Positions 7,605-24,240 of a stretch of DNA of 26,051 nucleotides are shown piece by piece. The DNA comes from a virus. The notes beneath the pieces were generated by a model, which was not told the DNA's origin, searched no databases, and was given only the letters and a program-made list of their open reading frames with translations. Every line of letters begins with the position of its first letter. Position 1 is the first letter of the stretch. Position numbers and translations under genes: made by a program. The stretch spans positions 1 through 26,051 of IMG/VR virus record IMGVR_UViG_3300020197_001914; one strand, given 5' to 3'.

Positions 7605-7949
7605 ATGCCGAGCTACGAGTCGAAGCCGCTGTCGATCCGCTTTTCCCCTGCGCAGCTCGCGCTGATCGATGACGTCGCCCGGCAAATGCGCGTCTCGCGC
7701 TCGATCGCGGTCCGTGCGCTGATCACCGCTGCGCTCGCGGACGACGTCGGTCGCGCGGTGGCGTGGGAGTACACCGCGAAGCTGATGGCGGTCCGCAAGC
7801 TCCTCACGAAGCTCTTCGCGCGCGCGCTGCGGGAGACCGTCGACGCGACGATCCAGACGGCCATCGCCGAGGACGTGTTCGCGATGCGGAGCGAGGACAT
7901 CGAAGACCTCGTCGACGCGGGTATCAGCGAGGACGAGGCCGACGCGTGA
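7605..7949 (+). CDS. Ribbon-helix-helix (CopG/Arc-like) regulator
   Basis: The N-terminal 45 residues (SIRFSPAQLALIDDVARQ, then VSRSIAVRALITAAL) have the short strand, helix, turn and helix of ribbon-helix-helix DNA-binding proteins. These bind DNA as dimers through the strand and often occupy tandem short repeats. The C-terminal 65 residues are helical and acidic at the end (DIEDLVDAGISEDEADA). ATG 7605 is preferred over a TTG three codons upstream. The stop overlaps the sigma-like gene start, so the two are translated together. It may bind the GACAAC repeats, but this is inference. Confidence 0.7.
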   Translation: MPSYESKPLSIRFSPAQLALIDDVARQMRVSRSIAVRALITAALADDVGRAVAWEYTAKLMAVRKLLTKLFARALRETVDATIQTAIAEDVFAMRSEDIEDLVDAGISEDEADA

Positions 7950-8602
7950 GCCGGGAGGCGCGGAACCCGTACGCGCGGCTCCTCCGCGTCGACTGCTCCA
8001 GCCTCTCGAATCGGGAGGCGAAGGTCTTACTCACCCGGTACGAACGCATCGTCCAGCACCACGTGACGGCGTTCGCGCGCGCGCTCCCGAAAGCTCGGGG
8101 GCTCGACTCCGAAGACCTCCTCGCCGTCGGGCGTTACGCCGTGCTCGAAGCGTCGCTCACGCACGCCGCCGACCGTAACGTGTCGCTCGACACTTGGGTC
8201 TACACGGTCGTGCGCTGGCGCATCGCGCACCAGGTCGAGGTGATGGACGAGGCCCACGTGGTTGTCTACCGCGACGTTCTGGCCGCCGCAGGGCGTGTCG
8301 CCGAGGGCCGGGAAGACCGGCGGGACGGCGGGGCGTGCGGCGACACCGACCTCGACGTGCTCGGGGGCGAGGACGCGATGGTCGCGCAGATCGACGCCCG
8401 ACGGGCGCTCGCCCAGGTAGGGGCGTTGCTCGCAGGAATGCCCATGCGAATGCGGCACATCCTCTTTCAGCGGCTCGCGGCGCAGTCGTCCGGGGACGTC
8501 GCGGGCGCGCTCGGGATCTCTCACTGGCGAGAGCAGCAGCTCATGGTGCGGATCCGCGCCGACCTGCGCGCAGGGCTCGCCGCCCACCTCGCCGCCGGCT
8601 GA
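7946..8602 (+). CDS. Sigma-70-like RNA polymerase sigma factor
   Basis: Residues of about 31-100 resemble sigma-70 region 2, including LDSEDLLAVGRYAVLEAS and VSLDTWVYTVVRWRIAHQV, which contain the usual -10 binding helices. Residues of about 155-208 resemble region 4 with a helix-turn-helix (SSGDVAGALGISHWREQQL). A glycine- and Asp-rich linker joins them. The product should direct the host RNA polymerase to a set of phage promoters, probably those of the downstream late cluster. It starts at GTG 7946 and overlaps the regulator stop by four bases. Length 218 aa is normal for an alternative sigma factor. Confidence 0.75.
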   Translation: MSREARNPYARLLRVDCSSLSNREAKVLLTRYERIVQHHVTAFARALPKARGLDSEDLLAVGRYAVLEASLTHAADRNVSLDTWVYTVVRWRIAHQVEVMDEAHVVVYRDVLAAAGRVAEGREDRRDGGACGDTDLDVLGGEDAMVAQIDARRALAQVGALLAGMPMRMRHILFQRLAAQSSGDVAGALGISHWREQQLMVRIRADLRAGLAAHLAAG

Positions 8603-8606
8603 GGGG

Positions 8607-8642: not shown

Positions 8643-8891
8643 ATGGACAAGAACGCCATCCTGGCGGGAGCCGTGGCCGGAGCCTTCGCAGGCGTCGCGA
8701 CGTGGCTCATCCTCCGCCCCGTCGTCAACTCGCAGATCGAGTCGACCTTGCAGACGCAGCTCCGTCAGCAGATCCCGACGCAGCTCAACTCGGCGCTCGA
8801 CGCGAAGCTCGCGGAGTTCGGGTTCACGCGGCAGACCGGCCAGCAGGTCAGCTCGCTCCTCGACGCGCTCGATCGCGTGGGGCTCGTCTGA
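8643..8891 (+). CDS. Small membrane protein (82 aa), N-terminal span
   Basis: A single hydrophobic segment (AILAGAVAGAFAGVATWLIL) fills residues 5-24, followed by a helical, Gln-rich tail with LLDALDRVGL. The layout is a short N-anchored protein with a soluble C-terminal helix. It is the first gene of the late cluster and its TGA overlaps the next ATG. No family is recognised; a virion membrane or scaffold role is inferred from context. Confidence 0.7.
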   Translation: MDKNAILAGAVAGAFAGVATWLILRPVVNSQIESTLQTQLRQQIPTQLNSALDAKLAEFGFTRQTGQQVSSLLDALDRVGLV

Positions 8892-9160
8892 TGTCGCCCC
8901 GGGGCCAAGCCGCCACGGCCGGCTTCGTCGTCGGCGCCGTCACCTTCGCCGGCTGCTTCTACTTCTGGATCCAGCGGAAGCAGGCGGACCTCGCCCACAT
9001 CGGGCAGAACCTCGCGCCCGCGATCGCCGAGCAGGCGGTCAAGGACTACATCGCCACCAACTACGGCATGACGCCCGAGCGCCTTCGCGCGGCGATGGGG
9101 CACATCCGGGCAGTGCAAGGCTCGCTCGGCCCGATCCTCTCGGCCTCTATCCTTCGGTGA
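8891..9160 (+). CDS. Small membrane protein (89 aa) with YFW segment
   Basis: One hydrophobic span at residues 9-27 (TAGFVVGAVTFAGCFYFWI) is followed by a basic residue pair (QRK) and a helical C-terminal domain. The FYFWIQRK sequence resembles the ends of three proteins further on (YFWLRR, YFWRKR, HFWLKR). It overlaps the preceding gene by one base. Family unknown. Confidence 0.7.
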   Translation: MSPRGQAATAGFVVGAVTFAGCFYFWIQRKQADLAHIGQNLAPAIAEQAVKDYIATNYGMTPERLRAAMGHIRAVQGSLGPILSASILR

Positions 9161-9164
9161 TCCC

Positions 9165-9548
9165 ATGATGCTCACGCGCCCCGCGCACACCGCGCCCATC
9201 GACTCGCAGCTCACCGGCATCTACGGCCTCACGGGTCGTGTCCACTGGCCGACCGCCCTCGCGCGCACGGCTCTTCGCGGCCTCGTGCTCTGGCCCGTCA
9301 TCGCCTTCGTCGGCGGCACGCGCGGCGTGCGTGGCGCGATGACCGCGCTCGTCGGCGGTGCGGCCTACACCGTCGTCGAAATGGCCTTCGACGCCACGGG
9401 CGCAGCGAACGCCGCAGCCTCGGTGCTCTCGTCGTCCGCCGCCCCAGGCACGCTCCCGAACGGCGTGCCCACGCAACCCGCACCGGCCGACATGATGCCG
9501 AACGGCATGGGTCGCGTGATCGACGCAGCGCAAGGCGGTGTGTGGTGA
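9165..9548 (+). CDS. Membrane protein with one or two hydrophobic segments (127 aa)
   Basis: Hydrophobic segments lie around residues 35-52 (TALRGLVLWPVIAFVGG) and 57-75 (AMTALVGGAAYTVVEMAF). The N terminus is polar, and the C terminus is Ala/Pro/Met-rich and probably unstructured. No family is recognised. It overlaps the following protease-like gene (GTGA), so it is part of the same translated unit. Confidence 0.65.
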   Translation: MMLTRPAHTAPIDSQLTGIYGLTGRVHWPTALARTALRGLVLWPVIAFVGGTRGVRGAMTALVGGAAYTVVEMAFDATGAANAAASVLSSSAAPGTLPNGVPTQPAPADMMPNGMGRVIDAAQGGVW

Positions 9549-10258
9549 ACCTGCTCGCGCTTCACGCCTCCGTGAACAAGTCGCCGCTCGTGAACGATGC
9601 CAAGGGCGCGTTCATCCCTCAGGCCCAGGTCTTCGCGAAGATCCACACCGCCGCCGGCCACACGGTGACGCGGGTGCCGTTCGCGAACGACCTTCTGCCC
9701 GCGGCGCGGAAGAAGGCGTTCTACGACGCGATCCGCGCGGCGAAGGGCCTCGATGGCTTCGCCTACTTCGGCCACGGCCTGCGCACGTCGCTCCCGAGCG
9801 CGGGGCTTCAGCTCTCGGACATCCCCGAGCTGGCGAAGCTCCTCGCCGCGGCGACGAACCCCGACACGCGCACGCTCCGCATCGCGCTCTACGCGTGCTC
9901 GGCGGCAGCGAGCCCGCTCCGCGTCGTCGTCAGGACCGACGACGAGGGCGTCTACGGTGGCGAGGGCTCGGGCGATGGCGGCTTCGCCGATCTTCTCCGG
10001 GACGCGCTCGCACAGCTCAAAATCAAGGGCCACGTGGACGCGCACATCAACGCGGGCCACACGACCACGAACCCGTACGTCAAGCGCTTCGTCTCGGACG
10101 GTGAGCACACCGGCGTCGGCGGTGAGTGGCTCGTGTCGCCGAAAGACGCGAAGCTCTTCAAGGCGTTCCGGAAGAAGCTCACGGACGATCGGACCTTCCG
10201 CATGAACTTCACGTTCATGGAAGCGGACGCCGTTCGCGCTGCACTCGTCGGAGGCTGA
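9545..10258 (+). CDS. Caspase-like (clan CD type) predicted cysteine protease
   Basis: The 237-residue protein shows a His-Cys dyad pattern of caspase-like folds: a hydrophobic strand ending in FAYFGHG (His77) and another ending in LRIALYACSAA (Cys118), each after a predicted central strand. The region GSGDGGFADLLRDAL after them fits the helix that follows the catalytic Cys, and HINAGHTTTNPYVKRF follows. The dyad and spacing of about 40 residues match the general fold, but the family is not named with certainty. It could cleave phage structural precursors or act in host killing; the surrounding small membrane genes favour a particle maturation role. GTG 9545 overlaps the preceding stop codon; GTG 9542 is an alternative. 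Confidence 0.5.
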   Translation: MNLLALHASVNKSPLVNDAKGAFIPQAQVFAKIHTAAGHTVTRVPFANDLLPAARKKAFYDAIRAAKGLDGFAYFGHGLRTSLPSAGLQLSDIPELAKLLAAATNPDTRTLRIALYACSAAASPLRVVVRTDDEGVYGGEGSGDGGFADLLRDALAQLKIKGHVDAHINAGHTTTNPYVKRFVSDGEHTGVGGEWLVSPKDAKLFKAFRKKLTDDRTFRMNFTFMEADAVRAALVGG

Positions 10259-10259
10259 A

Positions 10260-10724
10260 GTGGCGAACCATTCGAGCACGGACCTCTTCGCCCTCGCGCA
10301 CGACCTGCGCGCGATCGTGTCGAACCCCGTGACGCCCGCGTCGGTGAAGTCGCAGGCGGAGACGATGCTCGCGAAGTACGCGACCGCCTTCACGGCGGCG
10401 CAGGGCATCCCCGTCGGCACGTCGATCTCGATCTACGTCCAGGAGGACGGGCACCCGACGATCGGCGCCGTCGCGACCTTCGTGCGCGACACGGCCGCGC
10501 CCTACGTGCTCGGCAGGACGCTCGCGGAAGGGTCGCCCGCAAGCTCGCGCTCGACGTCGGTGCTCCGGCCTGTGGCGACCCCTCCTTCGTCACTTGCACC
10601 GACGTCGGGCGCGGGGTCGTCGAAGACGCCCCGCTGGCTCGTCTACGTGCTCGCCGCCGGTGCGGGCTTCGGTGCGATGTACTTCTGGCTCCGGCGGTCC
10701 AAGGGAAGCAGGCGCGCACGATGA
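10260..10724 (+). CDS. Protein with C-terminal membrane span and basic tail (154 aa)
   Basis: The N-terminal 85 residues look soluble and partly helical, then comes a Ser/Pro/Thr-rich linker and a single span (LVYVLAAGAGFGAMYFW) ending in LRRSKGSRRAR. By the positive-inside rule the basic tail faces the cytoplasm or virion interior. GTG 10260 has GGAGG 6-7 bases upstream. Its stop overlaps the next start. Family unknown. Confidence 0.65.
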   Translation: MANHSSTDLFALAHDLRAIVSNPVTPASVKSQAETMLAKYATAFTAAQGIPVGTSISIYVQEDGHPTIGAVATFVRDTAAPYVLGRTLAEGSPASSRSTSVLRPVATPPSSLAPTSGAGSSKTPRWLVYVLAAGAGFGAMYFWLRRSKGSRRAR

Positions 10725-10885
10725 ACCCGACCACTTCTCCACCCCCGCAGACGCAGATGCAGGCGCAGACGCAGGCGCAGACGTCGTCGCTGCCCTGGTG
10801 GCTGAAAGGCAACACGATCCCGGCGGTGCTCGCCTTCTGCGCGGGTGCTGGCGCGGTGTACTTCTGGCGGAAGCGGTTCCCATGA
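10721..10885 (+). CDS. Small membrane protein (54 aa) with Gln/Thr repeat
   Basis: ATG 10721 overlaps the previous stop and the frame runs to TGA 10883-10885. The protein starts with a Pro/Gln/Thr run (QTQMQAQTQAQT), then WW, and a span (IPAVLAFCAGAGAVYFW) ending RKRFP. The YFW-plus-basic end matches its neighbours. Overlaps on both sides and the shared motif support it as a real gene despite its size. Confidence 0.65.
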   Translation: MNPTTSPPPQTQMQAQTQAQTSSLPWWLKGNTIPAVLAFCAGAGAVYFWRKRFP

Positions 10886-11070
10886 CCTACGGACATCCGA
10901 CGCACACGCCGACGCCCCAACTGTCCGGCCCCGGGACGGAGATCGTCGCCGACCCTGTACGCCGCGGGCTGTACTGGCTGCGGTTCAAGGGCAAGCTCCT
11001 GTTGCCCGCGCTCGCTGGCGCGCTCGTGATGCACTTCTGGCTCAAGCGGTCCAAGCGACGCAAGCGGTAG
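10882..11070 (+). CDS. Small membrane protein (62 aa), strongly basic tail
   Basis: ATG 10882 overlaps the preceding stop. The N-terminal half is polar with THTPTPQL, then GLYWLRFKGKL, a span (LLLPALAGALVMHFW) and the tail LKRSKRRKR. The HFWLKR end parallels the YFW ends of its neighbours. No family is recognised. Confidence 0.65.
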   Translation: MTYGHPTHTPTPQLSGPGTEIVADPVRRGLYWLRFKGKLLLPALAGALVMHFWLKRSKRRKR

Positions 11071-11080
11071 GAGACGAACG

Positions 11081-11314
11081 ATGCGAGTTGCAACCCTCGG
11101 CCAGCTCTCGACTGGCATCCGCCCCGGCGAGACGATCGCCCACCCCTACAGCCTGAGCGCCGTCGCTCCGATCCCCGTGCCCTCCGCGGGCGTGTACGGC
11201 TTCGGCACCATGACCGAAGAAACACAGATGCGTCTCGGCGTCGGCGTCTGTGCGTTCGTCGCCGGAGGCATCACCGGCTACCTCTTCGCCGCGCGGCGGA
11301 AGCGTCGTCGCTGA
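11081..11314 (+). CDS. Small membrane protein (77 aa), basic tail
   Basis: A polar N-terminal half (residues 1-50) is followed by a single span (LGVGVCAFVAGGITGYLF) and the tail AARRKRRR. It has a TAGGAGA ribosome site. It is the last of the four genes with a C-terminal span and basic tail in a row, and its stop overlaps the next start (TGATG). Confidence 0.65.
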   Translation: MRVATLGQLSTGIRPGETIAHPYSLSAVAPIPVPSAGVYGFGTMTEETQMRLGVGVCAFVAGGITGYLFAARRKRRR

Positions 11315-11928
11315 TGGCGAGTCGCGTGAAGCCGCAGCCCATCGGACCCCGTCTGCCTGGCGGCGCCTTCCAGGCGTCGCGCACGCGCGCGACGAAGATC
11401 GGACGCTGCTCGCTCACGCGGCGGTACACGCGGCACACGAAGTGGAGCCTCGACGAGCCGTCGCAGCGCCGCATCGCGTACACGCTCGACTGCGGCCAGC
11501 GTCGTCGCGCCGACCTCGAAATCATCCACTCCCCGAACCGTGATGCGTACTGGCGCGAACGGCTCGGCCTGGCGCGCGGCGTGAAGGTGTGGCGTGTGTC
11601 GTCGATCGACACGGAAGCCGCAGCGCAGCGCAAGGGCCTCGCGACGCGTCTCTACGAAGAGGCGGCGAAGCACGTGTGCGCGCGTGGTGGCGTGCTCATC
11701 TCGAACAACCGACTGCCCGGGGCGAAGAGCCAGGACTTCTGGTGGAAGCAGGTGCAGAAGGGTCGCGCTCGCCGCGTCGGCGAGGGCGAGTTCGTCCACG
11801 CGAGCGTCGTGCTCGACTGCGCGCACGCAGGCGACCTCTCGGGCGTCGCGAAGCGTCGGCGCGTGAAGCGCAAGCAGGTGAAGCGCAAGCCCGTGAAGCG
11901 CAAGACGACGAAGCGAGCTGCACGATGA
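11314..11928 (+). CDS. GNAT-like acetyltransferase with Lys/Arg-rich C-terminal tail
   Basis: The central part carries a GNAT motif A-like loop, AQRKGLATRLYEEAAKH (residues 104-120; Q105-x-x-G108-x-A110), which in the family binds acetyl-CoA, followed by a strand (GGVLISN) and QDFWWKQVQKGRA, which fits the end of the fold. The last 25 residues are nearly all Lys, Arg and Val, with a repeated VKRK unit, and look like a nucleic-acid-binding tail. Predicted role: transfer of an acetyl group to an unknown acceptor, or a non-catalytic DNA-binding protein. It overlaps neighbours at both ends. Confidence 0.6.
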   Translation: MASRVKPQPIGPRLPGGAFQASRTRATKIGRCSLTRRYTRHTKWSLDEPSQRRIAYTLDCGQRRRADLEIIHSPNRDAYWRERLGLARGVKVWRVSSIDTEAAAQRKGLATRLYEEAAKHVCARGGVLISNNRLPGAKSQDFWWKQVQKGRARRVGEGEFVHASVVLDCAHAGDLSGVAKRRRVKRKQVKRKPVKRKTTKRAAR

Positions 11929-12599
11929 TCCCGTTCGAGTCACTCTCACTCCCGCTCTTGCGCGCGAAGGACGGCTGGACCTATCAGGTCACGCCGCGCG
12001 ACTTGCTCGTGATGGCGCGCTCGATCCGGCGCGAGAGCACGCGCGACGGTGACGCGATCCCGTGGATGTACGCGCAGCGGCTCTACCTCTTGCGCCGCTC
12101 GTACAGCTCGCTCGCCGCGCTCGCCACCGCCTACTCCCAGCCGATCAATCCCGCGTGGTTCCCGAGCGGACGCTTCTGCGTGCCGGGCGGGGAATACCAC
12201 GGCACGCGCTCGTGCCTGGACGCACCGAACCGTCCCGGCTACGCCGCCGCGTCGTGGGAATCGCTCGGCGACGCGACGCAGACGGCGACCGCACGGTGGG
12301 CGCGCGGTGACGTGCCGAACCCGGTGCCGAAGGTCGTCCACTTCGCGGCGGAAAGCCTCGTCGCGCGGCAGATCGCCGCCGGTGGAACCAGCGAGAAGCG
12401 CGTGATCGTGCGGCAGGGACGCGAGCCCTTCACGAACACGTTCCTGTCTACGAAGACGTCGCGCGAGTGGCCCGACGACTTCATCCAGCTCGAAGTGGGA
12501 GGGAAGGTCGTCGGCACGACCTCGAATCCACTACCCTACGTTCTCGGTGCACTGGCGATTGGCGCCGGTGTAGCTGTGCTAGTGGCGCGCAAGCGCTGA
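11925..12599 (+). CDS. Membrane-anchored peptidoglycan hydrolase-like protein
   Basis: The 224-residue protein has an N-terminal domain that begins VTPRDLLVMARSIRRES (Glu37), then IPWMYAQRLYLLRRSY and a YSQPINPAWF loop, similar to lytic transglycosylase or SleB-type cell-wall hydrolases where the Glu is catalytic. A second protein of this type is at 15319-15873. The C terminus is one membrane span (YVLGALAIGAGVAVLV) ending ARKR. It could open the host wall during entry, as the membrane-bound lysin of membrane-containing phages does, or act at lysis. The family assignment rests on short motifs only. Confidence 0.5.
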   Translation: MIPFESLSLPLLRAKDGWTYQVTPRDLLVMARSIRRESTRDGDAIPWMYAQRLYLLRRSYSSLAALATAYSQPINPAWFPSGRFCVPGGEYHGTRSCLDAPNRPGYAAASWESLGDATQTATARWARGDVPNPVPKVVHFAAESLVARQIAAGGTSEKRVIVRQGREPFTNTFLSTKTSREWPDDFIQLEVGGKVVGTTSNPLPYVLGALAIGAGVAVLVARKR

Positions 12600-12612: not shown

Positions 12613-12774
12613 ATGGCAAAGTCCTGCGCATGCGTGCCCGCGAGGCGCGCGAAGAAGAAGGCGAAGAAGTCCACCACCAAGCGCCGCACGAAGAAGTGCG
12701 CGAAGGGTGCGAAGGGCGCGGCCTGCCGCGCTCGGAAGCGCGCCGCCGCCAAGCGTCGCAAGTCGCGCGCCTGA
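12613..12774 (+). CDS. Protamine-like, Cys-containing basic protein (53 aa)
   Basis: Twenty-four of 53 residues are Lys or Arg and none is acidic; Cys5, Cys7, Cys29 and Cys38 could cross-link or bind metal. AAAKRRKSRA ends the protein. The ATG follows AGGAGAG closely and the frame is closed by TGA before a strong terminator. The composition is that of a DNA-condensing protein, such as a virion core protein, and its position at the end of the late cluster agrees. No named family is claimed. Confidence 0.65.
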   Translation: MAKSCACVPARRAKKKAKKSTTKRRTKKCAKGAKGAACRARKRAAAKRRKSRA

Positions 12775-12803: not shown

Positions 12804-12844
12804 GGGGCGATGCGGAGAAATCCACATCGCCCCTTGCTTTTATT
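12804..12844 (+). terminator. Strong intrinsic terminator of the late cluster
   Basis: GGGGCGATG (12804-12812) pairs perfectly with CATCGCCCC (12825-12833); GGA/TCC continues the stem after one mismatch, and a GAAA loop closes it. TTGCTTTTATT follows. This is the best terminator in the window. Confidence 0.85.
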
Positions 12845-12893
12845 ATGTACCTGCGCCGCGCGTCGTATCACCTTTCCAGGATACGGAGGAGCC

Positions 12894-13130
12894 ATGAGAC
12901 AAGTCGTTGCGCTTATCACGGTTTTCGCACTCGGGATGTTGCCCGGGTGCGCCGGCCGCCAGCGAGTGAGAGCCTACGAGGCTGAGCTGGCGCGCTGCGA
13001 AGCGAACCTGCACGCGATCATCGCGCGCGATCCTGCCACGAGCACCGAAGAGCAGGACCTCGCCGACCTCACCGCAGAACGCGCGCGCTGCCTGAGCGCG
13101 CTCGACACCCTGCACGGAGACCTGCCATGA
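12894..13130 (+). CDS. Small lipoprotein (78 aa), possible lysis protein
   Basis: Residues 1-19 form a signal peptide with the lipobox LPGC (Cys19). The rest is a short charged helix with two Cys (ELARCEANLHAII, ERARCLSALDTL) and probably a coiled coil. Short lipoproteins of this kind are seen as outer-membrane spanins in phages, where they act with an inner-membrane partner; no partner is certain here. ACGGAGGA precedes the ATG. Its stop overlaps the next start. Confidence 0.6.
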   Translation: MRQVVALITVFALGMLPGCAGRQRVRAYEAELARCEANLHAIIARDPATSTEEQDLADLTAERARCLSALDTLHGDLP

Positions 13131-13399
13131 CCCAGCCGAATCTGGAACCGTACGAGGAGCTGTTCGACGTCGCCGTCCGCACGGCCTTCAAGCTCCCGAG
13201 CGACTTCGACGTCGTCGACATCGGGAAGAAGGTGCTCCACGCGATCCCGATCCTGATCGAGTTCTTCCGCGCGCGGCGGAACGAGAAGATCGACGTCTCG
13301 CTCGCGAAGCTCCGCGCGAGCATCGTCGCCGACTTCGACGCGGCCGAAGACGCGATCCGCGACAAGTACCGCACGCAGGACGGGCAGGACGATGACTGA
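13127..13399 (+). CDS. Hypothetical small protein (90 aa)
   Basis: An acidic, helical protein with an amphipathic hydrophobic stretch near residues 34-48 (IGKKVLHAIPILIEFF) and charged ends. It overlaps the lipoprotein gene by 4 bases and the next gene by 8 bases, so the three form one unit. No family is recognised; a lysis or virion function is possible. Confidence 0.6.
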   Translation: MTQPNLEPYEELFDVAVRTAFKLPSDFDVVDIGKKVLHAIPILIEFFRARRNEKIDVSLAKLRASIVADFDAAEDAIRDKYRTQDGQDDD

Positions 13400-13907
13400 T
13401 GCCCTCGGCGACCTGCACCAAGTCTTCACCGCAGGCGGAAGCGCTGCGGGGATGTGGATGTTCGTCCGGTACGTCGCGAAGCAGACGATCGCGTGGCTGA
13501 ATGCCCGCGAGAGTCGCCTCATGGCGGAAGCGACCGAGCGAACGAAGCAGGTCGCCGCGGATGCGCAGGCCAAGGTCGAAACAGCGCGCGCGGACGACAT
13601 CACCGCGCAGCAGGCGCTCGACAACGAGCACGAGTGCCTTCAGCTCGTGAAGGCGCAGATCGCCGAGACGAAAGCAGTGCGCAACGAAGTCACCGTGCTC
13701 TCGGAGATCATCACGCGTACGGTGAAGGACTACGACGACTGCGAAAGCGCACGCGCCGTACAGCAACATCGCATCGAAGTCCTTGAGACGACAGGCAGGC
13801 GCACGCGGAAGCGCATCGCGCAGCTTGAAGCCGCGCTCGTGACGGCGGGGATCTCGCCGCCTGCCCCGACGCAACGCTTACCGTCGACGCCGCCTGCGTC
13901 GGACTGA
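13392..13907 (+). CDS. Hypothetical protein with hydrophobic start and long coiled coil (171 aa)
   Basis: A hydrophobic segment (GGSAAGMWMFVRYVAKQTIAW, about residues 15-35) could be a membrane anchor, followed by a long heptad-rich coiled coil to about residue 150 and a Pro-rich end. An anchored coiled coil beside a lipoprotein resembles the inner-membrane half of a spanin pair, but this is a guess. The stop codon lies inside the first unit of the tandem decamer array. Confidence 0.6.
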   Translation: MTDALGDLHQVFTAGGSAAGMWMFVRYVAKQTIAWLNARESRLMAEATERTKQVAADAQAKVETARADDITAQQALDNEHECLQLVKAQIAETKAVRNEVTVLSEIITRTVKDYDDCESARAVQQHRIEVLETTGRRTRKRIAQLEAALVTAGISPPAPTQRLPSTPPASD

Positions 13908-14404: not shown

Positions 14405-15322
14405 TCAGGAGCCCTTCCCGGGCAGCTCCTCGCGCCCGAACTTCTCGCGGATGCGGCGCTGCACGTTCCCGATCGCGTCGGGGCGTGCCTCGTCGAGGTA
14501 CGTGCTCGTGGTGAGCATCGAGCGGTGGCCGAGGAGCTGCTGTACGGCCGGCATGTCTTCGGTCACGCGGAGCGCCTGGACGGCGACCGTGCGGCGAAGG
14601 CGGTGCAGGTAGATGCGGCCGTCGACGCCCGCGCGTCCTGCGGCGCGCAAGAGCGCCCGTCGCACACGCTTGTACGCGGGGCCTTCGCCCGACGCTCGCG
14701 TGTCCTTCGGCGTCACGAGCTGCGCGACGTTCGTCGCGTCGCGGTTCCGCTCGGCGAGCGCGATGAGCCGGAGCCAGTCGGCCGGCGCACCTGCGATCGG
14801 GAGGATGCGCCACTCGCCGCCCTTCGCGTCGAACCGGACTTGGTTCGTGCGCTTCGCTTCGAGCAGCGCGGAGCACGGGATCGCGAGTAGGTCGCCGATG
14901 CGCAGGCCCGTCGCCATGAGCGTGAGCAGGACCGCGGGGATCGCGCCGCCGCGCTTCATCGAGTCTTCGAGGAGCACGTCGTAGAGGTGCTGCCACTCGG
15001 CGTCCGGGATCGAGCGCGCGGCGAGCTTGCGGCGCGTCTGCGCCTCACGCCGCTTCTCGATGCCGGTCTTCTCCGTCGCCTTCTGGTTCTCATGCTCGGC
15101 GAGGAAGATCCCGACGTTGCGCGTGAGCACCGGATCGGTGTGGCTCTCGCGCCACCTCTGCCACGCACGCGCGGCGGAGACGTTCACGAGCGTGAAGTCG
15201 AGGTCGTAGAGGGCGTCGGTGCGCATCGCGCGGAGCGCAGTCGCGTACCTGCGCCCGGTCTGGTCGCGGTAGCCGCCGACACGGAGCGCTTCACGGAAAC
15301 GGTCGATGGGGTCCACGATCAC
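14405..15322 (-). CDS. Tyrosine recombinase (phage integrase)
   Basis: The 305-residue protein has the tyrosine-recombinase catalytic set: Arg141 in TGLRIGDLL, Lys167 in FDAKGGEWRIL, His240-x-x-Arg243 in YLHRLRRTVAVQ, His266 in QQLLGHRS and Tyr275 in TTSTYLDE. It would join phage and host DNA by attP/attB crossover, so the element is temperate or mobile. GTG 15322 overlaps the stop of the upstream gene (GTGA) and gives a normal size with an N-terminal SAM-like core-binding domain. Nearby repeats at 13899 may be its arm sites. Confidence 0.9.
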   Translation of the reverse strand: MIVDPIDRFREALRVGGYRDQTGRRYATALRAMRTDALYDLDFTLVNVSAARAWQRWRESHTDPVLTRNVGIFLAEHENQKATEKTGIEKRREAQTRRKLAARSIPDAEWQHLYDVLLEDSMKRGGAIPAVLLTLMATGLRIGDLLAIPCSALLEAKRTNQVRFDAKGGEWRILPIAGAPADWLRLIALAERNRDATNVAQLVTPKDTRASGEGPAYKRVRRALLRAAGRAGVDGRIYLHRLRRTVAVQALRVTEDMPAVQQLLGHRSMLTTSTYLDEARPDAIGNVQRRIREKFGREELPGKGS

Positions 15323-15873
15323 CTCGCCGGAGCTTGCAGGTACTCGTTCAACGTCCGGCCGCAGTCGACGCGTGTCCAGCCCGACGCGATCATTCGGTCC
15401 ATGCGCGCGCGGATGTAGCGCGGAGCGCCCCATGTGTACGCGCGGCATCGGTTGCGGGGCTCGGCGAGCGCCGTGCGCACTTCGCGTAGGCGCTGATACC
15501 AGCGCAGACGGTAGCGCGACCACGGCACGCCAACGGGCCAGCCTGCGGGCTCGTCGAGCCCCGCGTCGAGCGCGTTCACCCATCTGCGTCGCGTCGGACC
15601 AAACGTCGCTTGCGCGTGGAAAGTCGCGACGTAGTCCGCGATGTCGAGGCCGAGCACGCGCGCACGGTTGCGGACGACGTGCGCGATGGCGCGCGGGTCG
15701 TTCGTCGCCGCAAAGCCCGCTTCGTGGACGACGAGCCGTGCGAGACGCACCTCCGCGAGCGTGAAAGGCGCATCCGCGGCGGCGCGATCCGTACACGTGC
15801 TGCTCGCGAAAAGCAGCGTGAGGCAGAACACCGCCGTGACCGCGATGAGGAGGAAGCGTGCTTTGTTCGTCAT
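15319..15873 (-). CDS. Cell-wall hydrolase-like protein with N-terminal anchor (184 aa)
   Basis: An N-terminal hydrophobic segment (RFLLIAVTAVFCLTLLFA) is a signal anchor or signal peptide. The domain after it has FTLAEVRLARLVVHEAGF with Glu51 and AIAHVVRNRARVLG, which resembles SleB/Hydrolase_2 or lytic transglycosylase proteins, where this Glu is catalytic. The predicted activity is cutting peptidoglycan outside the cytoplasm. The ATG at 15873 lacks a clear ribosome site, and an upstream in-frame start is possible but would overlap the methylase. It overlaps the integrase start by 4 bases, an unusual pair. Confidence in the family is moderate. Confidence 0.6.
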   Translation of the reverse strand: MTNKARFLLIAVTAVFCLTLLFASSTCTDRAAADAPFTLAEVRLARLVVHEAGFAATNDPRAIAHVVRNRARVLGLDIADYVATFHAQATFGPTRRRWVNALDAGLDEPAGWPVGVPWSRYRLRWYQRLREVRTALAEPRNRCRAYTWGAPRYIRARMDRMIASGWTRVDCGRTLNEYLQAPAR

Positions 15874-16579: not shown

Positions 16580-19500
16580 TCACAGCTCCGCGAGATTCGT
16601 GCCGATGGCCGCCGTGGCGACGTACTTCATCGGCGTCCCGCCGGGCGTGAACGCAAACTCGCACGTGAGCGAGTCCTCGACGCACTTCGCGACGGCTTCG
16701 GCCTTCGTCTCGTCGCACTCGACGTACACGGCGTCGTGGATCTGCGCGATGATCACGGCCGTGGGGTCGATGAGCGGGAGCGCCTTGCGCAGGCGTGCGA
16801 GACCGAACGCCATCACGTCCGCGCCGCCCGACTGGATCGGGTAGTTGTAGACGACGCTCGCTTCGACGTCGCCGAGCGGGAAGATGCGGCGGCGCCCGTA
16901 GAGCGGCGAGCGCACTTCGCGGTTCGCCTGCGCGTCGCGGAACGTCTTGTCGCGCCACGTGGGCACGCCCGGGAAGAGCCTGAAGTAAGTCTTCGTGACG
17001 CGCTCGATGAACGGCAGCGTGAGCGGCGGACCGTCGTAGCCGCCGTTGTAGATCGCGTCGAGCACCGTCTGGCCGCCCGCGCCGTAGTTCAAGCCGTAGA
17101 TCGTGCGCTTGTTCACGTCACGCAGCGTCGAGCGCTTGCACTTCTGGCACTTGCACTTCGGCTCGCCCGGTTGCGGCTTCGTGTGCGACTTGTCGAAGCG
17201 GTCGAGGCTCGTGAACGTCGCACCGAAGACGAACGACGCGACGTAGCTGTGCGGGTCGCAGTCGGGGTTCAACTTGTCGTCCTCGCGCGCGTTCATGCAC
17301 CGCTCGATGAGGTTCTTGTCCCCCGAGAGGTTCGCGATGATGCGCATCTCTAGCTGCGCCTGGTCGGCGCCGACGAGCTTGCGTCCCGGCGGTGCGACGA
17401 ACACCGCGCGCATCCACTTTGGCCAGTTCTGGCACTGCCCGGTGACGCTGACGCAGCCGTTGTGGCGCACCACGATGAACGACGACGGCACCGAGACGCA
17501 ATACACGGTGAAGCCCGCGTCGTCGTGCAGCTCCGTGCGGCGCGTGTTCCTCGTGCCTGACGACGTGCGTAGCTGCCCGTCGATCTGCCAGTTGACCTTC
17601 GCGTCCGGGTTCGCAGGCGGGTACGCACGACGGCGCGCACGGTAGCCGGAGATCGAGAGCACCGCCTGCACGAGGTCCGCGTTCGCCTGCTCCGACGACG
17701 CGTACATCCCCGCGCCGATTCCACCTGTGCGCGAGGAGTCGCCCCACCGGTGCAGCTCGTGGATGAACACGTCGCGCGTGGACGGCGACGCCTCCGTGAG
17801 CCACGCGGAAGTCCACGTGCGCTCGGGAACCGTGAGCCAGGACTGCGCGAAGCCCGGCGGCAGCACGACGCTGAAGACATGCCGCACGTTCCGCGTGGTT
17901 CGTGGCGAGACCGTCCATGCGTAGGGCAGCAGCGCAAGGATGCCCGCGAGTCGCCTGCGCCTTCGCCATCCATCGAGCGTGAAGTGCCACACCTGCTGGC
18001 CGTCCGCGCGCACCTGTCCCGCGGACGCGTGTGCCTGGAACGCGACGAGGAAGCGGACGTACGCGGGCGGAAGATCGTAGTCTCCGCCGACGTACATGCC
18101 CGCGTGAAGCTGCTCGTGGTCTTCGGGGTAGTCCTTCGCCTCGACGACCCGCGTCCTGCCCGTCTTCCGGTTTCGCACGAGGCATCGATGGTCGGGCGTC
18201 ACGACGAGCGAGGTCGCCGTCGTCTGAAGGTGAAGCATCGGCCCGTGGTGCTGCTTCTGGATCCACGCCTCGGGATGCACCCAAGAGATCCCGCCGGTCT
18301 CGCGCGTGTACTGCGCCACACGCAGGCCCTCGCTCGGGTCGATCGCGTCGAAGCGCACGAAACCGCGTTCGGTGAGGATCTCCGTGTCCGCGCTGAAGCA
18401 GTTCGGGGTGCTCGTCCACCGACCCGTACGCGCGCCCGTCACGTTCCACGTCGGGTGGAAGCGTCCGTCCTCGCCGATCTGCCGCAGGTCTTCGGCGCGG
18501 ACGAAGTGGGAGAGGTTGTACTCGATCTTTTTGTACGCCAGCAGCTCGCGCACGAAAGGCTCGGCGATGTGCAGGCGCAGCGTGTCTGCGTCCATCGCAG
18601 GCGCGTCGGTCTTCTCCGTGCGCTTCAGGACGGGGAGCCGCAGGGGACCCGCAGGATCGAAGAGCACGTACTGAAGCCGTGCCGCAGCGCTCTTGCCACC
18701 GTCCCTCTCGATCTGTTTCTTCTGCTCGTCGGTGTCCGTGAGCCGGAAGTTCGGGTCCTTCAGGATCTCGCGCATGTTCGCGAGGTGCAGCGCTTGCTCG
18801 CGCGTCTGGTCGGCGTCGACCTTCGCGAGCGCTTGCTGGTTCAACGGCAGGCCCGCGATCTCCATGTCGATGCACACTTCGTGCATCACCTTGTCGCTCG
18901 TGACGACGTCGCGGACGTTCTCGACGTCCACACGCCCGCGACCGTTCGGCGTGCCGTTGAGCGCCGTCCACGCGAGCGCCGTCGCGTGCAAGTCGCGCGC
19001 GTTGTAGAGCGCCAGCTCCTCGAACGTGCGGTAGCCGGAAAGCTCCGCGTGCTCGTCCCACGCGGCGCCCTCTTCGGCGCCGCCCTTCCACGCAGGCGCG
19101 TCGGTCAGCTCGTGCGCGATGAAGCCGAGGCCGTGCTCTTCGTCGGGGTAGCAGTTCGCGTGGACGACCATCGTGTCGCCCTCGATGCCGGAGACCTCGA
19201 CGCCCCACATGCGGAGCATCGACACGCGGTCGTAGCCGAAGTTCTGCCCGACCTTGCGGTGCACGGGCGATTCGAGGAACGCGCAGAGCGCATCCTGCGC
19301 AGGGTGTCCGGGGAGGATCGAGCCGCCCCACGTGCGCGTGTCGATCACGAGGCCGACGCCCGTGTCGACGCGCTCGATGCCGATGCAGACGATATTCGTG
19401 ACCTTCCACGGTCCGCCGCGGCGGTTGGTCTCGATGTCGACCGTGTAGACGCCCGGCTCGGCGGTGTGCTCGCGGATCGCGTTCGCCGCTTCCTCCGGCG

Positions 19501-20515
19501 TCATGTGCTCCGTCGTCGTGAAGTTCACGTCGAACACGGGATCGCGCGTGAGCAGCGACTTCGCCTTGCGGAGGTGGTCGACGGTGGCGCGGGCGGCAAA
19601 CTGCCCGCCCATGAGAAACTTGCCGCCCTTCGACTTGCGCATTCCGCCGTCGCGCATGAGCAAGAGCGCGGGAGAGTACGTCGGGATCACGAAGCGCACG
19701 CCCAGCTCGCCGAGGTCGCCTTGCAGGTCCTCGGTCGGGAGGATCGCGCCGACGACACCGTTGCGCCCTGAGAGGGTGCGCATCGGGCGGTACTCCACGT
19801 AGCTCGCAGGCGTCTTCTTCTTCCCGCCGCAGTGGACGCACTTCGGGCGCTTCAGTTTGATGCGCTTCCACGACGTGCCGCACTCGGGGCAGTTCGGCTC
19901 GGTGGCGATGAGCTTCGCGTGCCACGCGGCCTGCGCCTCGTCGGTGCCGGATGGCGCGAAGAGCAGGTGCTTGCACGAGCCGTTCGGGCACTGCTGCGCG
20001 GGCGCGAGCTTTCGGTCGATGGGGTCGCACGACGAGCACGGATTGTCGACGAGGCGCGTGCGCTGCACCGCGTGCGAGGTGAGCGCGTCGAGACCCACCT
20101 GCCCGAGCACCACGATCACGCGAGGCTTCGCCGCCGCGATCTCCGCTTCAAGGCGCGGGAGGCAGGCGTAGAGATCGTCGGCGATGTGCTTGCGGAGATC
20201 GGACGACTTCACGCTCGGCGGATGGCCGAGCACGGCGACCGTCTTCCACACGGTCTCGGGCGCGATGCCCGCTTCGACGAGGAGCGCGTCGAGGAGCTGC
20301 GCGGTGCGTCCGATGAAGCCCGTGCGTCGCTGCGCTTCGAGCCGCGTCGGAAACTCGCCGATCACCATGAGGCCGCCTTGCTCGTACGCAGGGCCGACGA
20401 CGTTGGTCACGAACGATCGCTCACCACGGCAGGCGAGCTTCAGCGAACACGCGTCGCAGTCGGCGTGCCCAGGTCCGTAGGTCTCGAACGCGGTCACTGA
20501 GGTGGGGCGGTCCAT
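16580..20515 (-). CDS. Family A DNA polymerase with N-terminal UDG-like domain and intein
   Basis: Domains in order: residues 1-300 resemble family 4 uracil-DNA glycosylase (GEFPTRLEAQRRTGFIGR and CLPRLEAEI) with zinc-ribbon-like Cys pairs inserted (160/163, 176/181, 209/212, 226/229); from about 355 a 3'-5' exonuclease (VDIETN, Asp360 and Glu362); then the PolA palm with motif A (DQAQLEMR, Asp1051), motif B (NKRTIYGLNYG) and motif C (QIHDAVYVE, where the usual HDE is HDA). Residues 706-1027 are an intein within the TGRWTSTPN-CQNW loop. Without it the polymerase has 989 residues. UDG-PolA fusions are known in phage SPO1-type replication. Expected role: main replicative polymerase with the clamp at 2572. 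The UDG active site looks altered. The leader is shared with the gene at 2242. Confidence 0.92.
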   Translation of the reverse strand: MDRPTSVTAFETYGPGHADCDACSLKLACRGERSFVTNVVGPAYEQGGLMVIGEFPTRLEAQRRTGFIGRTAQLLDALLVEAGIAPETVWKTVAVLGHPPSVKSSDLRKHIADDLYACLPRLEAEIAAAKPRVIVVLGQVGLDALTSHAVQRTRLVDNPCSSCDPIDRKLAPAQQCPNGSCKHLLFAPSGTDEAQAAWHAKLIATEPNCPECGTSWKRIKLKRPKCVHCGGKKKTPASYVEYRPMRTLSGRNGVVGAILPTEDLQGDLGELGVRFVIPTYSPALLLMRDGGMRKSKGGKFLMGGQFAARATVDHLRKAKSLLTRDPVFDVNFTTTEHMTPEEAANAIREHTAEPGVYTVDIETNRRGGPWKVTNIVCIGIERVDTGVGLVIDTRTWGGSILPGHPAQDALCAFLESPVHRKVGQNFGYDRVSMLRMWGVEVSGIEGDTMVVHANCYPDEEHGLGFIAHELTDAPAWKGGAEEGAAWDEHAELSGYRTFEELALYNARDLHATALAWTALNGTPNGRGRVDVENVRDVVTSDKVMHEVCIDMEIAGLPLNQQALAKVDADQTREQALHLANMREILKDPNFRLTDTDEQKKQIERDGGKSAAARLQYVLFDPAGPLRLPVLKRTEKTDAPAMDADTLRLHIAEPFVRELLAYKKIEYNLSHFVRAEDLRQIGEDGRFHPTWNVTGARTGRWTSTPNCFSADTEILTERGFVRFDAIDPSEGLRVAQYTRETGGISWVHPEAWIQKQHHGPMLHLQTTATSLVVTPDHRCLVRNRKTGRTRVVEAKDYPEDHEQLHAGMYVGGDYDLPPAYVRFLVAFQAHASAGQVRADGQQVWHFTLDGWRRRRRLAGILALLPYAWTVSPRTTRNVRHVFSVVLPPGFAQSWLTVPERTWTSAWLTEASPSTRDVFIHELHRWGDSSRTGGIGAGMYASSEQANADLVQAVLSISGYRARRRAYPPANPDAKVNWQIDGQLRTSSGTRNTRRTELHDDAGFTVYCVSVPSSFIVVRHNGCVSVTGQCQNWPKWMRAVFVAPPGRKLVGADQAQLEMRIIANLSGDKNLIERCMNAREDDKLNPDCDPHSYVASFVFGATFTSLDRFDKSHTKPQPGEPKCKCQKCKRSTLRDVNKRTIYGLNYGAGGQTVLDAIYNGGYDGPPLTLPFIERVTKTYFRLFPGVPTWRDKTFRDAQANREVRSPLYGRRRIFPLGDVEASVVYNYPIQSGGADVMAFGLARLRKALPLIDPTAVIIAQIHDAVYVECDETKAEAVAKCVEDSLTCEFAFTPGGTPMKYVATAAIGTNLAEL
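17435..18400 (-). other. Intein inside the DNA polymerase gene (322 aa)
   Basis: The intein starts with Cys (CFSADTEILTERGFVRF, block A), has a block B-like TPDH (residues 68-71), and ends with VYCVSVPSSFIVV then VRHNGCVSVTGQ before Cys+1. The terminal residue is Gln rather than the usual Asn, and the penultimate is Gly rather than His. A central region resembles a LAGLIDADG endonuclease but its first motif reads AFQAHASAG, with His where the catalytic Asp (QADGS) is expected. Excision would join TSTPN to CQNWP, restoring a standard PolA sequence. Confidence 0.92.
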
Positions 20516-21025: not shown

Positions 21026-21463
21026 TCACGTAATGAGACTCGAAGCCGGCGTGTCGGGCGCCTGGAAGAACTCGACCGCGTAGCCGAGAGACTCCCAAAT
21101 CGCACGCACCGCAGGCGTGGTGACGAGCATGTACACGCTCGTCCAGCTCGCCACCTGGCCCGCGTAGTCGGGGGCTTTCGGATCGAGCTGCTTGCGCACC
21201 TTCACACGCGCAAGCTCATGCTGGTTCGTGGGGTTCCGCAGAATGAAACCCCAATACGGATGGGTCGCGCGCGCTTCGTCCGACACGATGTCTTCGATGA
21301 CACGTGCGTAGGTCTCGGCGTTCTGCACCGCGTTCGCGATGTGCTGCGCAAGCAGCGTCGCGGGAATGTGCGGCACGACGTGCCGCAAGGTGTTCGCACT
21401 GTGCGCGACGTAGGCTTCGAGGAAGTCCCCCTCCGCCTGCGCCTCGTCGTGCTCGGCGCTCAC
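21026..21463 (-). CDS. Hypothetical protein (145 aa)
   Basis: The product begins acidic (SAEHDEAQAEGDFLEAY), is helical in the middle (IPATLLAQHIANAVQNAETYARVIEDIV) and ends in VYMLVTTPAVRAIWESLGYAVEFF. I recognise no family. GTG 21463 overlaps the stop of the DUF669-like gene (GTGA), so it probably works with the DNA replication or recombination set. It is followed by the 12-bp stem-loop. Confidence 0.6.
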   Translation of the reverse strand: MSAEHDEAQAEGDFLEAYVAHSANTLRHVVPHIPATLLAQHIANAVQNAETYARVIEDIVSDEARATHPYWGFILRNPTNQHELARVKVRKQLDPKAPDYAGQVASWTSVYMLVTTPAVRAIWESLGYAVEFFQAPDTPASSLIT

Positions 21464-21951
21464 GACGTCGCCCGCGGACGGCGCTGGATGCCGCCCTGAC
21501 GCGCGGGCTCGGCCTTCGGAGCCGCGGCCTTCGGAGCGGGCGGCGCCTCCTCTTCCGGCTCGTCGTCGGCGTAGACCGTCTCGTTCCCGATGCGGTTCTG
21601 GTCCTTGCCCTCGTACTTCTCGACCGTCAGCTCGGCCGTGAAGCGCAGACCCACGAGGTCGTTTTCGTCGAACTCGATCTGCGGGTTGCCCTTCTCATCC
21701 TCGCCGACGACGTTGTGCGGAACGCGCGACGCCTCGATGAGCATGTTCAGGCGGAAGAGCGCCTGCGGGAGGAGCGAGTACCACGTGGTGAACTTCTTCC
21801 CCGCGTGCGGGCCGTCGATGATCTCCGTGACGACCTTGAGCTGCGGGTTGCCCTTCTTCGAGGCCCCCTGCTCGACTTCCATGATCTCGAAGGAGTAGAT
21901 CCCCGCGGGATAGACCTCGAACAAACTAGACGCGTTGGTGTAGCGAATCAT
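21460..21951 (-). CDS. DUF669-like, probable single-stranded DNA binding protein
   Basis: The 163-residue protein starts with short strands (AGIYSFEIMEVEQGASKKGNPQLKV without a break) and contains EIIDGPHAGKKF, LVGLRFTAELTVEKYEGK and a low-complexity end with an acidic run (DDEPEEEAPPAP) and a basic final segment. This fits phage DUF669 proteins, which sit beside Sak4/ERF-type recombination genes and are thought to bind ssDNA. It is part of the recombination set with the ATPase and nuclease upstream. The ATG is preceded by an A-rich leader rather than a good ribosome site. Confidence 0.65.
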   Translation of the reverse strand: MIRYTNASSLFEVYPAGIYSFEIMEVEQGASKKGNPQLKVVTEIIDGPHAGKKFTTWYSLLPQALFRLNMLIEASRVPHNVVGEDEKGNPQIEFDENDLVGLRFTAELTVEKYEGKDQNRIGNETVYADDEPEEEAPPAPKAAAPKAEPARQGGIQRRPRATS

Positions 21952-21978
21952 GTTGCTTTGTACTTTCCGTTTTCAGTT

Positions 21979-22152
21979 TTAGTGACTGACCCCGGAGGAA
22001 CGATTCCCCCGAGGAACGTCGACCAGCTCGAACCACACGCGGATGTTCGTGTAGCCCCTCTCCTGCGCGGTGAACCGCGCGTGCTGTTCGGAGAGGTAGG
22101 GACCGTGCTTCGCGACGCGATCGTTCGCGAAGTAATAGAACCGACGCTTCAC
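21979..22152 (-). CDS. Small basic/aromatic protein (57 aa)
   Basis: GTG 22152 overlaps the stop codon of the Sak4-like gene. The 57 residues begin VKRRFYYFANDRVAKHGPYL and are rich in Arg, Tyr and Phe; the layout is one short strand-helix-strand unit. Too small to assign, but the overlap and its place in the recombination operon support it as real. The stop is followed by an unusually A-rich leader. Confidence 0.6.
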   Translation of the reverse strand: MKRRFYYFANDRVAKHGPYLSEQHARFTAQERGYTNIRVWFELVDVPRGNRSSGVSH

Positions 22153-22922
22153 GTGCCGGTGCCCACGATGATCGCGGAGAAGTTGTTGAAGTCGAAGTTT
22201 TCGACCACGCCCGGGATCTCGCGGAAGCGCGTACGCGCGGGGTACACGCGGTAGGGCTGGAAGTGGACGCGGTAGAGCGGCTTGCCCTTCGCGCTCGTCG
22301 CCGGGACGTTCTCGCAGAAGCCGATCACGTCGCACGCCGACGGCAGCATGCGCGCCATCTTCCCGACGATGTCGGGCGAGCCCTCGACCGCAGTGCCCTC
22401 ACCGTCGACCTTCGAGAGCGCGGTGAACACGACGTGGCAGTCGAACGTGCGGAGCGTTGAGTGCACCATGCGGAGGTGGTCGGCGATGAGGCCCCACCGC
22501 TGCTGGTCCATCTTGTGCGTGCCGTTGCCCGAGACGTCGTCTTGGAGCATCGCGCAGTAGTGCGTCATCGACTCGAAAACGATCGTCTCCCACGGGAACG
22601 CCTCCATCGCGGCTTCCTCGTCGCCCTCGGCGAGCTTCGACCGCATGAGCGCGTGCTTCGTGCTCAGATGCTTCAGAATCTCAGCCATGTGCTTTCGCGG
22701 CTCCACAGTCGCACCGCGTGAGTCACGACCGACTTTGATGTAGTCGTAGCCGAGACCGGCAAGCGACAGCTCGGAGCCTTCGGACACCGGGACGAGGAAC
22801 AGCGGGTTCGGGAACGTCGCTGCGTTCGTGGTCTTGCCGGAGCCGGTCGAGCCGTAAAAGAACCAGTGGGTCCACGGGTTCTGAATCTTCTCGGTCTTCT
22901 GAATGTGAAAGAGATTCGACAT
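22149..22922 (-). CDS. Sak4-like / RecA-type phage ATPase
   Basis: The Walker A motif is GSTGSGKT (residues 24-31) and the Walker B-like strand TIVFES (113-118). The order HWFFYGSTGSGKTTNAATFP, LFLVPVSEGSEL and MDQQRWGLIADHLRMV is that of phage nucleotide-binding proteins (AAA_24, Sak4 type), which use ATP to anneal or exchange DNA strands with an SSB partner. Neighbours (Cas4-like nuclease, DUF669-like) support recombination. ATG 22922 follows GACGAAAGGACC. The length, 257 aa, is normal. Confidence 0.8.
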   Translation of the reverse strand: MSNLFHIQKTEKIQNPWTHWFFYGSTGSGKTTNAATFPNPLFLVPVSEGSELSLAGLGYDYIKVGRDSRGATVEPRKHMAEILKHLSTKHALMRSKLAEGDEEAAMEAFPWETIVFESMTHYCAMLQDDVSGNGTHKMDQQRWGLIADHLRMVHSTLRTFDCHVVFTALSKVDGEGTAVEGSPDIVGKMARMLPSACDVIGFCENVPATSAKGKPLYRVHFQPYRVYPARTRFREIPGVVENFDFNNFSAIIVGTGT

Positions 22923-22945
22923 GGTTCGGTGCGGTCCTTTCGTCG

Positions 22946-23884: not shown

Positions 23885-24240
23885 TTCTCCACCCCCACAG
23901 GCTCCGTGCGCATGGCTTCCCACGCAGCGAGGGTGGCGAGCGCCGTGTCGACCGTCTTCTGCGTCCTGGCGTACTCACGCACGAGCCGCGCGTGGAGCGC
24001 GGGAAGGTGCATCGCGAGGACGGCGCGAACGTGCCCCGACGCTTCTGCGAGGGGCACGCGCGTCCTACCGGGACCCATGCGGAAGTAGAACAAGCCCCAC
24101 GTGGTACCGTGCACGCGCGACCACGAGAGCGCGTACGTGTCCTCGCCGATCGGCACTTCAACCTCGGCGTACATGCTGTACTCCGCGAAAGCCACCTGCG
24201 CGCGTTCGATAGCTCGGTTCAACTCGTCCAGTTTGTTCAT
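23881..24240 (-). CDS. Hypothetical protein (119 aa)
   Basis: The start is helical (MNKLDELNRAIERAQVAFAEY), then a strand-rich part (YALSWSRVHGTTWGLFYFRMG) and a final long helical section (ATLAAWEAMRTEPV). No family is recognised. It overlaps both neighbours by 4 bases (ATGA), placing it firmly in the helicase-nuclease operon. Confidence 0.7.
   Translation of the reverse strand: MNKLDELNRAIERAQVAFAEYSMYAEVEVPIGEDTYALSWSRVHGTTWGLFYFRMGPGRTRVPLAEASGHVRAVLAMHLPALHARLVREYARTQKTVDTALATLAAWEAMRTEPVGVEK

Follow-up and report, generated by a model that had tools for sequence, protein, structure and literature searches.

We describe a cluster of ten genes at positions 8643-12599 of IMG/VR virus record IMGVR_UViG_3300020197_001914, which was analysed over its full 26,051 bp (hereafter the window) and is a fragment ending before the capsid genes. 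We consider it likely that the cluster is part of an uncultured tailless double-stranded DNA (dsDNA) virus with an internal membrane and a jelly-roll capsid, a distant relative of Salisaeta icosahedral phage 1 (SSIP-1), and that the majority of the encoded proteins belong to the membrane of an inner vesicle. This interpretation draws on the finding that the same relative records contain both homologs of the cluster and a block of virion genes.

The ten genes (Table 1) lie on the plus strand, neighbours overlapping by no more than 7 bases or being separated by 10 at most, including several ATGA/TGATG couplings, and all of them display a coding-type third-position GC content (GC3) of 0.82-0.93, the open reading frames (ORFs) of 54 and 62 amino acids (aa) included. 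A preliminary description of this region had counted at least seven consecutive one-span genes. A clear single span is indeed predicted for seven of the ten proteins, compared with eight of 32 elsewhere in the window (Fisher p 0.02), but the run is broken by two soluble proteins (9542-10258 and 11314-11928), and the span of the 9165 product is borderline. Four proteins had further been said to share a span ending in YFW plus basic residues. The pattern [FYH]FW..[KR] recovers all four, and within the whole window it occurs only in the cluster: YFWIQR (8891), YFWLRR (10260), YFWRKR (10721) and HFWLKR (10882). With the looser pattern FW..[KR], five of 11 cluster proteins were matched, and four or more of 11 were reached in 0.02% of within-protein shuffles. 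The four are nevertheless of two kinds, since in the 8891 product the span is close to the N-terminus and a helical domain comes after it, whereas the other three are C-terminal tail anchors whose tails carry +3 to +7. The Lys/Arg tails reported for two more proteins are present as well, in the products of 11081 (RRKRRR) and 11925 (ARKR). The literal FW motif is not kept in relatives; what is kept is a C-terminal span with a short, often basic tail. Searches with the cluster proteins gave no significant Pfam or PHROG match, the 11314-11928 product falling below the cut-off for Acetyltransf_1 (E 0.078).

Direct searches of viral contigs with the caspase-like and lysin-like proteins gave no match. 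Relatives were reached through the C-terminus of the window polymerase, leading to G1 (76,963 bp) and G2 (23.8 kb), through G1 structural genes, leading to G3 (30.7 kb), and through the transglutaminase-like gene, leading to G4 (68.4 kb); a polymerase family search yielded 13 close contigs with the same polymerase block, among them G5 (63.9 kb). We took G1 as complete because an exact 127-bp direct repeat is found at its ends, an arrangement consistent with a circular genome or terminal redundancy. Homologs of the first three cluster genes (8643, 8891 and 9165) are collinear in G1, where they also lie downstream of a homologous sigma-like gene (G1_070, 9e-16), and two of the three occur in G4. 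Altogether, six cluster genes have homologs in relatives, five of them clear and one (10260) weak, the last matching G3_011 in the linker and span only (2e-5 with phmmer, 0.007 with blastp). By eye, the 11081 product can be likened to G1_078 (MR..TL start, YGFG, C-terminal span and RKRR tail), a resemblance for which the sequence match is not significant. The window and its relatives have the polymerase, Sak4-like ATPase, nuclease, DUF669 and SNF2 genes in common and in the same order, and in each of the four large relatives (G1, G3, G4 and G5) the virion block is located past the SNF2 gene. The window ends at the SNF2 gene and therefore, judging from synteny, the capsid genes are not seen here.

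Table 1. Genes of the cluster and other annotated features of the window.
Position	Strand	Feature	Evidence and homologs
7946..8602	+	Sigma-factor-like gene immediately preceding the cluster	Label by sequence inspection, not profile match
8643..8891	+	82-aa protein, N-terminal span and helical domain	51% identity to G1_071, 35% to G4_073
8891..9160	+	89-aa protein, N-terminal span ending FYFWIQRK and helical domain	Homologs G1_072 and G4_074, in same order
9165..9548	+	127-aa hydrophobic protein, borderline span	42% identity over 53 aa to G1_073, same order
9542..10258	+	238-aa soluble protein, clan-CD-like His/Cys pair YFGHG...YACSAA	Motif by eye
10260..10724	+	154-aa tail-anchored protein, span 127-144 ending YFWLRRSKGSRRAR	Topology prediction
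10721..10885	+	54-aa tail-anchored protein, ...VYFWRKRFP	Coupled ORF, GC3 0.85, topology prediction; homolog not found
10882..11070	+	62-aa tail-anchored protein, ...MHFWLKRSKRRKR	GC3 0.89, topology prediction; homolog not found
11081..11314	+	77-aa tail-anchored protein, ...YLFAARRKRRR	Topology prediction
11314..11928	+	204-aa GNAT-like protein, Lys/Arg-rich C-terminus	Homolog G1_116 (6.5e-15)
11925..12599	+	224-aa tail-anchored lysin-like protein	Homologs G1_091 (43%), G5_040, G4_113
12613..12774	+	53-aa protamine-like Lys/Arg-rich protein	GC3 0.89
12810..13130	+	Lipoprotein-like, o-spanin-like protein	By inspection: LPGC lipobox, helical tail
13392..13907	+	Long helical protein, possible inner spanin	By inspection; no span at threshold used
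15319..15873	-	Secreted or anchored protein, possible endolysin	Homolog G1_054 (1.7e-23); no Pfam or PHROG match
16580..20515	-	Uracil-DNA glycosylase (UDG)-exonuclease-family A DNA polymerase fusion with intein	PF03167, PF01612, PF00476; homologs in all relatives
21460..25949	-	Replication/recombination block: DUF669 single-stranded DNA-binding (SSB)-like protein, Sak4-like ATPase, PD-(D/E)XK nuclease, SNF2 helicase	

The link to SSIP-1 is provided by a transglutaminase-like protein of the virion block (PF01841 for G1_042), which matches only this phage among 50,697 phage records. The proteins of G1, G3 and G4 (G1_042, G3_021 and G4_023) match SSIP-1 gp34, which is annotated as a structural protein, with phmmer E-values of 8e-14 to 1e-10 and a profile E-value of 6e-16; no gp34 homolog was seen in the window fragment. 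SSIP-1, an unclassified phage, is tailless, with an internal membrane, a 100-nm T=49 particle, a 44-kb circular dsDNA genome (43.8 kb) and two types of major capsid protein (MCP), and it has been grouped with the vertical single beta-barrel viruses (PMC6356626, PMC4958249, PMC6260650); its genome shows hardly any similarity to GenBank entries (PMC6356626). In addition to gp34, the two systems have in common an integrase gene, many late proteins with one C-terminal span (in SSIP-1 the muralytic-looking gp54 is one of them), and a late block that opens with the transglutaminase and closes with large spike-like proteins. Proteins with a C-terminal span make up 7-14% in the window's virus family, and the same test gave 12/57 (21%) for SSIP-1, 5/36 (14%) for P23-77 and 3/115 (2-3%) for two tailed phages. 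There are also differences: G1 measures 77 kb, the UDG-PolA/SNF2/Sak4 block was not detected in SSIP-1, the SSIP-1 gp40 ATPase is unmatched here, the SSIP-1 tails are less basic, and capsid homology is not demonstrable by sequence, the G1_023 family reaching an hhalign probability of 51% over 35 columns against gp45/gp46 and the others less.

The numerous spans could also be explained if the cluster were mainly a lysis cassette, its products acting as holins, pinholins or spanins at release while the virion is built from the capsid block elsewhere only. A spanin-looking lipoprotein and a helical protein (12810-13907) do come after the cluster, G1 071-073 lie near an amidase-like gene and a lipoprotein, and the 8643 product has a weak Rz-like match (E 0.022). 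However, five or more small membrane proteins are too many for a single lysis cassette, and in G1 and G4 the lysin homologs are located away from the remaining lysis-like genes. Moreover, many late proteins of SSIP-1 are C-terminally anchored, among them gp34 and gp53, both annotated as virion proteins and each with one C-terminal span. We regard a lysis cassette as an unlikely explanation of the cluster as a whole.

The virion block of the relatives comprises three paralogous capsid candidates of 225-257 aa, of which G4, a fragment, shows two, another pair of paralogs of 315-396 aa, rich in beta strands and not reached by the G4 fragment, C-terminally anchored proteins with short basic tails, and small Lys/Arg-rich proteins; in G1 it also includes spike-like proteins rich in beta structure and an M23 peptidase that has a C-terminal span. 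AlphaFold2 modelling of a 226-aa paralog from six sequences produced a beta-sandwich with one helix, at a predicted local distance difference test (pLDDT) score of 70 and a predicted template modelling (pTM) score of 0.70. In VIA-align, the MCP of Sulfolobus polyhedral virus 1 (SPV1) ranked top with a Z of 8.4 (root-mean-square deviation, rmsd, 3.6 over 140 aa), followed by satellite panicum mosaic virus (7.7), HHIV-2 (7.4), HCIV-1 (7.3), SH1 (7.3) and P23-77 VP17 (6.8); non-viral jelly rolls, PHM among them, are interspersed at this last level (6.6-7.2). The model supports, but does not prove, that the capsid candidate would be a vertical single jelly roll of the kind found in internal-membrane viruses. 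These single jelly-roll-like candidates, together with the virion protein common to membrane-containing SSIP-1, indicate that the virion probably has an internal membrane, as the preliminary description had proposed; the abundance of C-terminal-span proteins is indirect evidence for it. In a related record (G006, 8001-8603), part of a capsid-like gene belonging to the three-paralog family was also observed, inside the replication block.

A shell of single rather than double jelly rolls is probable. A virus of the same kind might instead form its main shell from double jelly rolls of the G1_022/023 family, as in PRD1 and PM2, and use the single jelly-roll paralogs as pentons or minor proteins; we hold this to be decidedly improbable. 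Members of that family are 315-396 aa long and beta-rich and show two strand clusters, although in a model of low confidence: the representative G3_003 reached a pLDDT of 57, and its Foldseek and VIA matches are other jelly-roll capsids, from polyomavirus, birnavirus and nodavirus, at an rmsd near 20 Å (Foldseek) or a Z of at most 7. Scans of G1 returned no PHROG match to a double jelly-roll MCP, double-jelly-roll families were not prominent in the fold lists (an outcome still compatible with their presence), and no P9-like or FtsK ATPase was found. A double-jelly-roll MCP, which the preliminary description had named as a protein to look for, was not recognised: the best-modelled candidate came out as one jelly roll, and the model of the other family is too poor for classification.

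When the late and other proteins of G1 were compared with all PHROGs, no terminase, portal, HK97/major head or tail-tube match was obtained, the sole head- or tail-labelled matches being the M23 peptidase domain of G1_007 and weak tail-spike matches; the terminase large subunit (phrog_2) was not found in G0, G1 or G3-G5. As controls, the PHROG library picks up three Mx8 proteins (terminase, portal and head protein) as well as the P23-77 ATPase, while phrog_2 in genome mode finds the tailed phage SPN1S (NC_016761) and misses Mx8. The earlier view that this is not a tailed-phage operon is supported by the complete G1. The terminase, portal and tail genes whose presence beside the window had been named as refuting evidence did not turn up in the relatives; the record of the window's own virus stops short of that flank. 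An ordinary tailed phage, with head and tail genes outside the sampled contigs and with the small membrane proteins as accessory products (morons, exclusion), is very improbable and largely refuted by G1, for although tailed phages commonly have replication blocks of this type (family A polymerase, SNF2, Sak4, DUF669) and the window itself is incomplete, the complete G1 has no head or tail genes of that kind, and in G3, G4 and G5 this virion block again stands next to this replication block.

Among described membrane-containing viruses, the Sphaerolipoviridae and Matsushitaviridae (SH1, HHIV-2, HCIV-1, P23-77; Singelaviria, Helvetiavirae) resemble the present set in the single jelly-roll candidates, for which they provide best VIA matches, in the tailless internal-membrane plan proposed here, and in the small C-terminal-span proteins VP13 and VP10 (PMC6414509). 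They differ in having genomes of about 17-30 kb, two MCPs, and a packaging ATPase that can be recognised as FtsK/HerA-type (PMC5332951), whereas here we find three paralogs plus a second pair, records of 64-77 kb, and no FtsK/HerA-type ATPase. The Portogloboviridae contain SPV1, the top structural match of the capsid candidate, but this likeness comes from one fold comparison, has no sequence match beside it, and concerns a virus of an archaeal host. Tectiviridae, Corticoviridae and Jorvik-like viruses (PRD1, PM2, Jorvik) have membrane-bound muralytic enzymes, and their structural module encodes a number of short, hydrophobic products, such as Jorvik Gp16-19 (PMC10589892), but their double jelly-roll MCP and P9 ATPase were not recognised here.

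By analogy with HCIV-1/HHIV-2 and Jorvik proteins, we infer the following roles, as well as the virion membership and sidedness of each protein. The small C-terminally anchored proteins with basic tails would enter a patch of host membrane destined to become the vesicle, and would tie the vesicle either to the shell or to condensed DNA. In HCIV-1/HHIV-2, the vertex has its base in the membrane made of the 8.8-kDa VP13, which carries a C-terminal span, while VP10, also with a C-terminal span, is a candidate capsomer positioner (PMC6414509); in Jorvik, short hydrophobic and poorly conserved structural-module proteins were detected in virion-enriched samples (PMC10589892). The 8643/8891/9165 trio may act as a conserved membrane unit, perhaps in genome delivery or at the vertex. 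The tail-anchored lysin-like protein, whose C-terminal span is present in the window, G1 and G4 versions, would ride on the vesicle and open the cell wall at entry; it gave no family match, and a SleB identity for the lysins was rejected, PF07486 not being matched. Lys/Arg-rich proteins (12613 and the tail of 11314) would neutralise DNA charge. Small basic proteins like 12613 recur in the virion blocks of G1 (028, 031), G3 (009, 012) and G4 (006-009), which makes the unusual nucleoprotein core of the preliminary description possible. For packaging, a DUF3987 NTPase adjoins the virion block (G1_043, G3_022, G4_031) and may be a replicative helicase or a packaging motor; G1_043 is a candidate for a diverged packaging ATPase.

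Maturation may involve proteolysis. Among the late products of G1, G3 and G4 other than capsid proteins, the motif G-[FLIMV]-G occurs 69 times, compared with 29 +/- 5 in shuffles, and in early proteins 29 times, compared with 25 +/- 5. It often follows a basic residue close to the N-terminus (RGFGS, RRGFGN, RRGMGS) and is also found in SSIP-1 gp34, gp36, gp37, gp52 and gp53; glycine-rich spans explain part of the excess. Our guess from these patterns is that the motif might be a maturation cleavage site, for which the transglutaminase-like protein and the window 9542 His/Cys protein would be protease candidates. The latter, a possible maturation protease by its motif, is without a match in Pfam, PHROGs, the PDB, phages and viral contigs, and is absent from the relatives examined.

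Several observations weigh against a tailless internal-membrane virus. The virus is known from genes alone, the window itself contains no capsid gene, so that the tie to capsids runs through relatives, and sequence comparison gave no convincing homolog for any of the four small tail anchors (10260-11314). Part of the cluster adjoins lysis-like genes, and proteins with a C-terminal span number 0/28 in the membrane phage PRD1. Regarding the capsid, VIA Z-scores of 7-8 can arise without true kinship, the best Foldseek E-value for the 226-aa model is 9e-3 with none below 1e-3, and sequence similarity to P23-77 VP16 or SSIP-1 gp45-48 is not significant. The FtsK-like packaging ATPase anticipated in the preliminary description was not found either, with nothing above cut-off for FtsK/HerA (PF01580, PF01935) in G0, G1, G3, G4 and G5. 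Finally, the orientation of the anchors may be read in two ways: tail-anchor logic would place the basic tails inside the vesicle, while the positive-inside rule differs from the classical tail anchor and would direct them towards the shell.

Outside the cluster, the N-terminus of the window polymerase is a uracil-DNA-glycosylase domain (PF03167), and this N-terminal region is conserved among the aligned relatives. The polymerase carries an intein-like insert at about 17435-18400 (minus strand), with Cys at the N-junction and Gln-Cys at the C-junction, which is absent from the G3 homolog; an intein-like insert is also present in the ThyX of G2 (2738-4378 of that record). In every relative, a conserved protein of 590-710 aa with a hydrophobic stretch adjoins SNF2 (G1_050, G2_031, G3_027, G4_040, G5_004); it belongs to no known family and has weak PHROG matches only. 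At about 36,000-48,300, G4 contains genes that resemble, by eye, an epimerase, glycosyltransferases and a DegT-like aminotransferase, possibly for modification of virion or host glycans. To the left of the cluster, the window encodes a DUF932 protein (776-1801; PF06067, 3e-37), which, like other small genes there, has no homolog in G1. A search of genome contigs with the transglutaminase-like protein gave one match, in a Bacteroidales metagenome-assembled genome, which we rejected as a host clue, its neighbours being cellular genes unrelated to the virus; plasmid searches with MCP and Sak4 queries were empty.

Taken as a group, the relatives are large viruses with a relationship to SSIP-1 that have not been described as a set before, in agreement with the possibly new virus group suggested earlier, and an internal membrane in these viruses is well supported, if indirectly. 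A more far-reaching proposal, which we advance tentatively and regard as rather doubtful in its entirety, is that they constitute a deep lineage of tailless internal-membrane bacterial viruses of about 64-77 kb, with a shell of three-paralog single jelly rolls, a vesicle bearing a dozen tail-anchored proteins, protamine-like DNA condensation, packaging by an NTPase that is neither terminase nor FtsK/HerA, and a self-encoded maturation protease acting at G-[FLIMV]-G. SSIP-1, which since 2012 has been almost alone among membrane-containing phages, is now set among wider uncultured viruses: 13 contigs with the same polymerase block, and four records (G1, G3, G4 and G5) with jelly-roll candidates and membrane proteins in genomes of up to 77 kb. 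These records supply concrete candidates for the capsid, the membrane and the entry enzyme, and they make testable how a virus with no recognised packaging ATPase fills a membrane vesicle.

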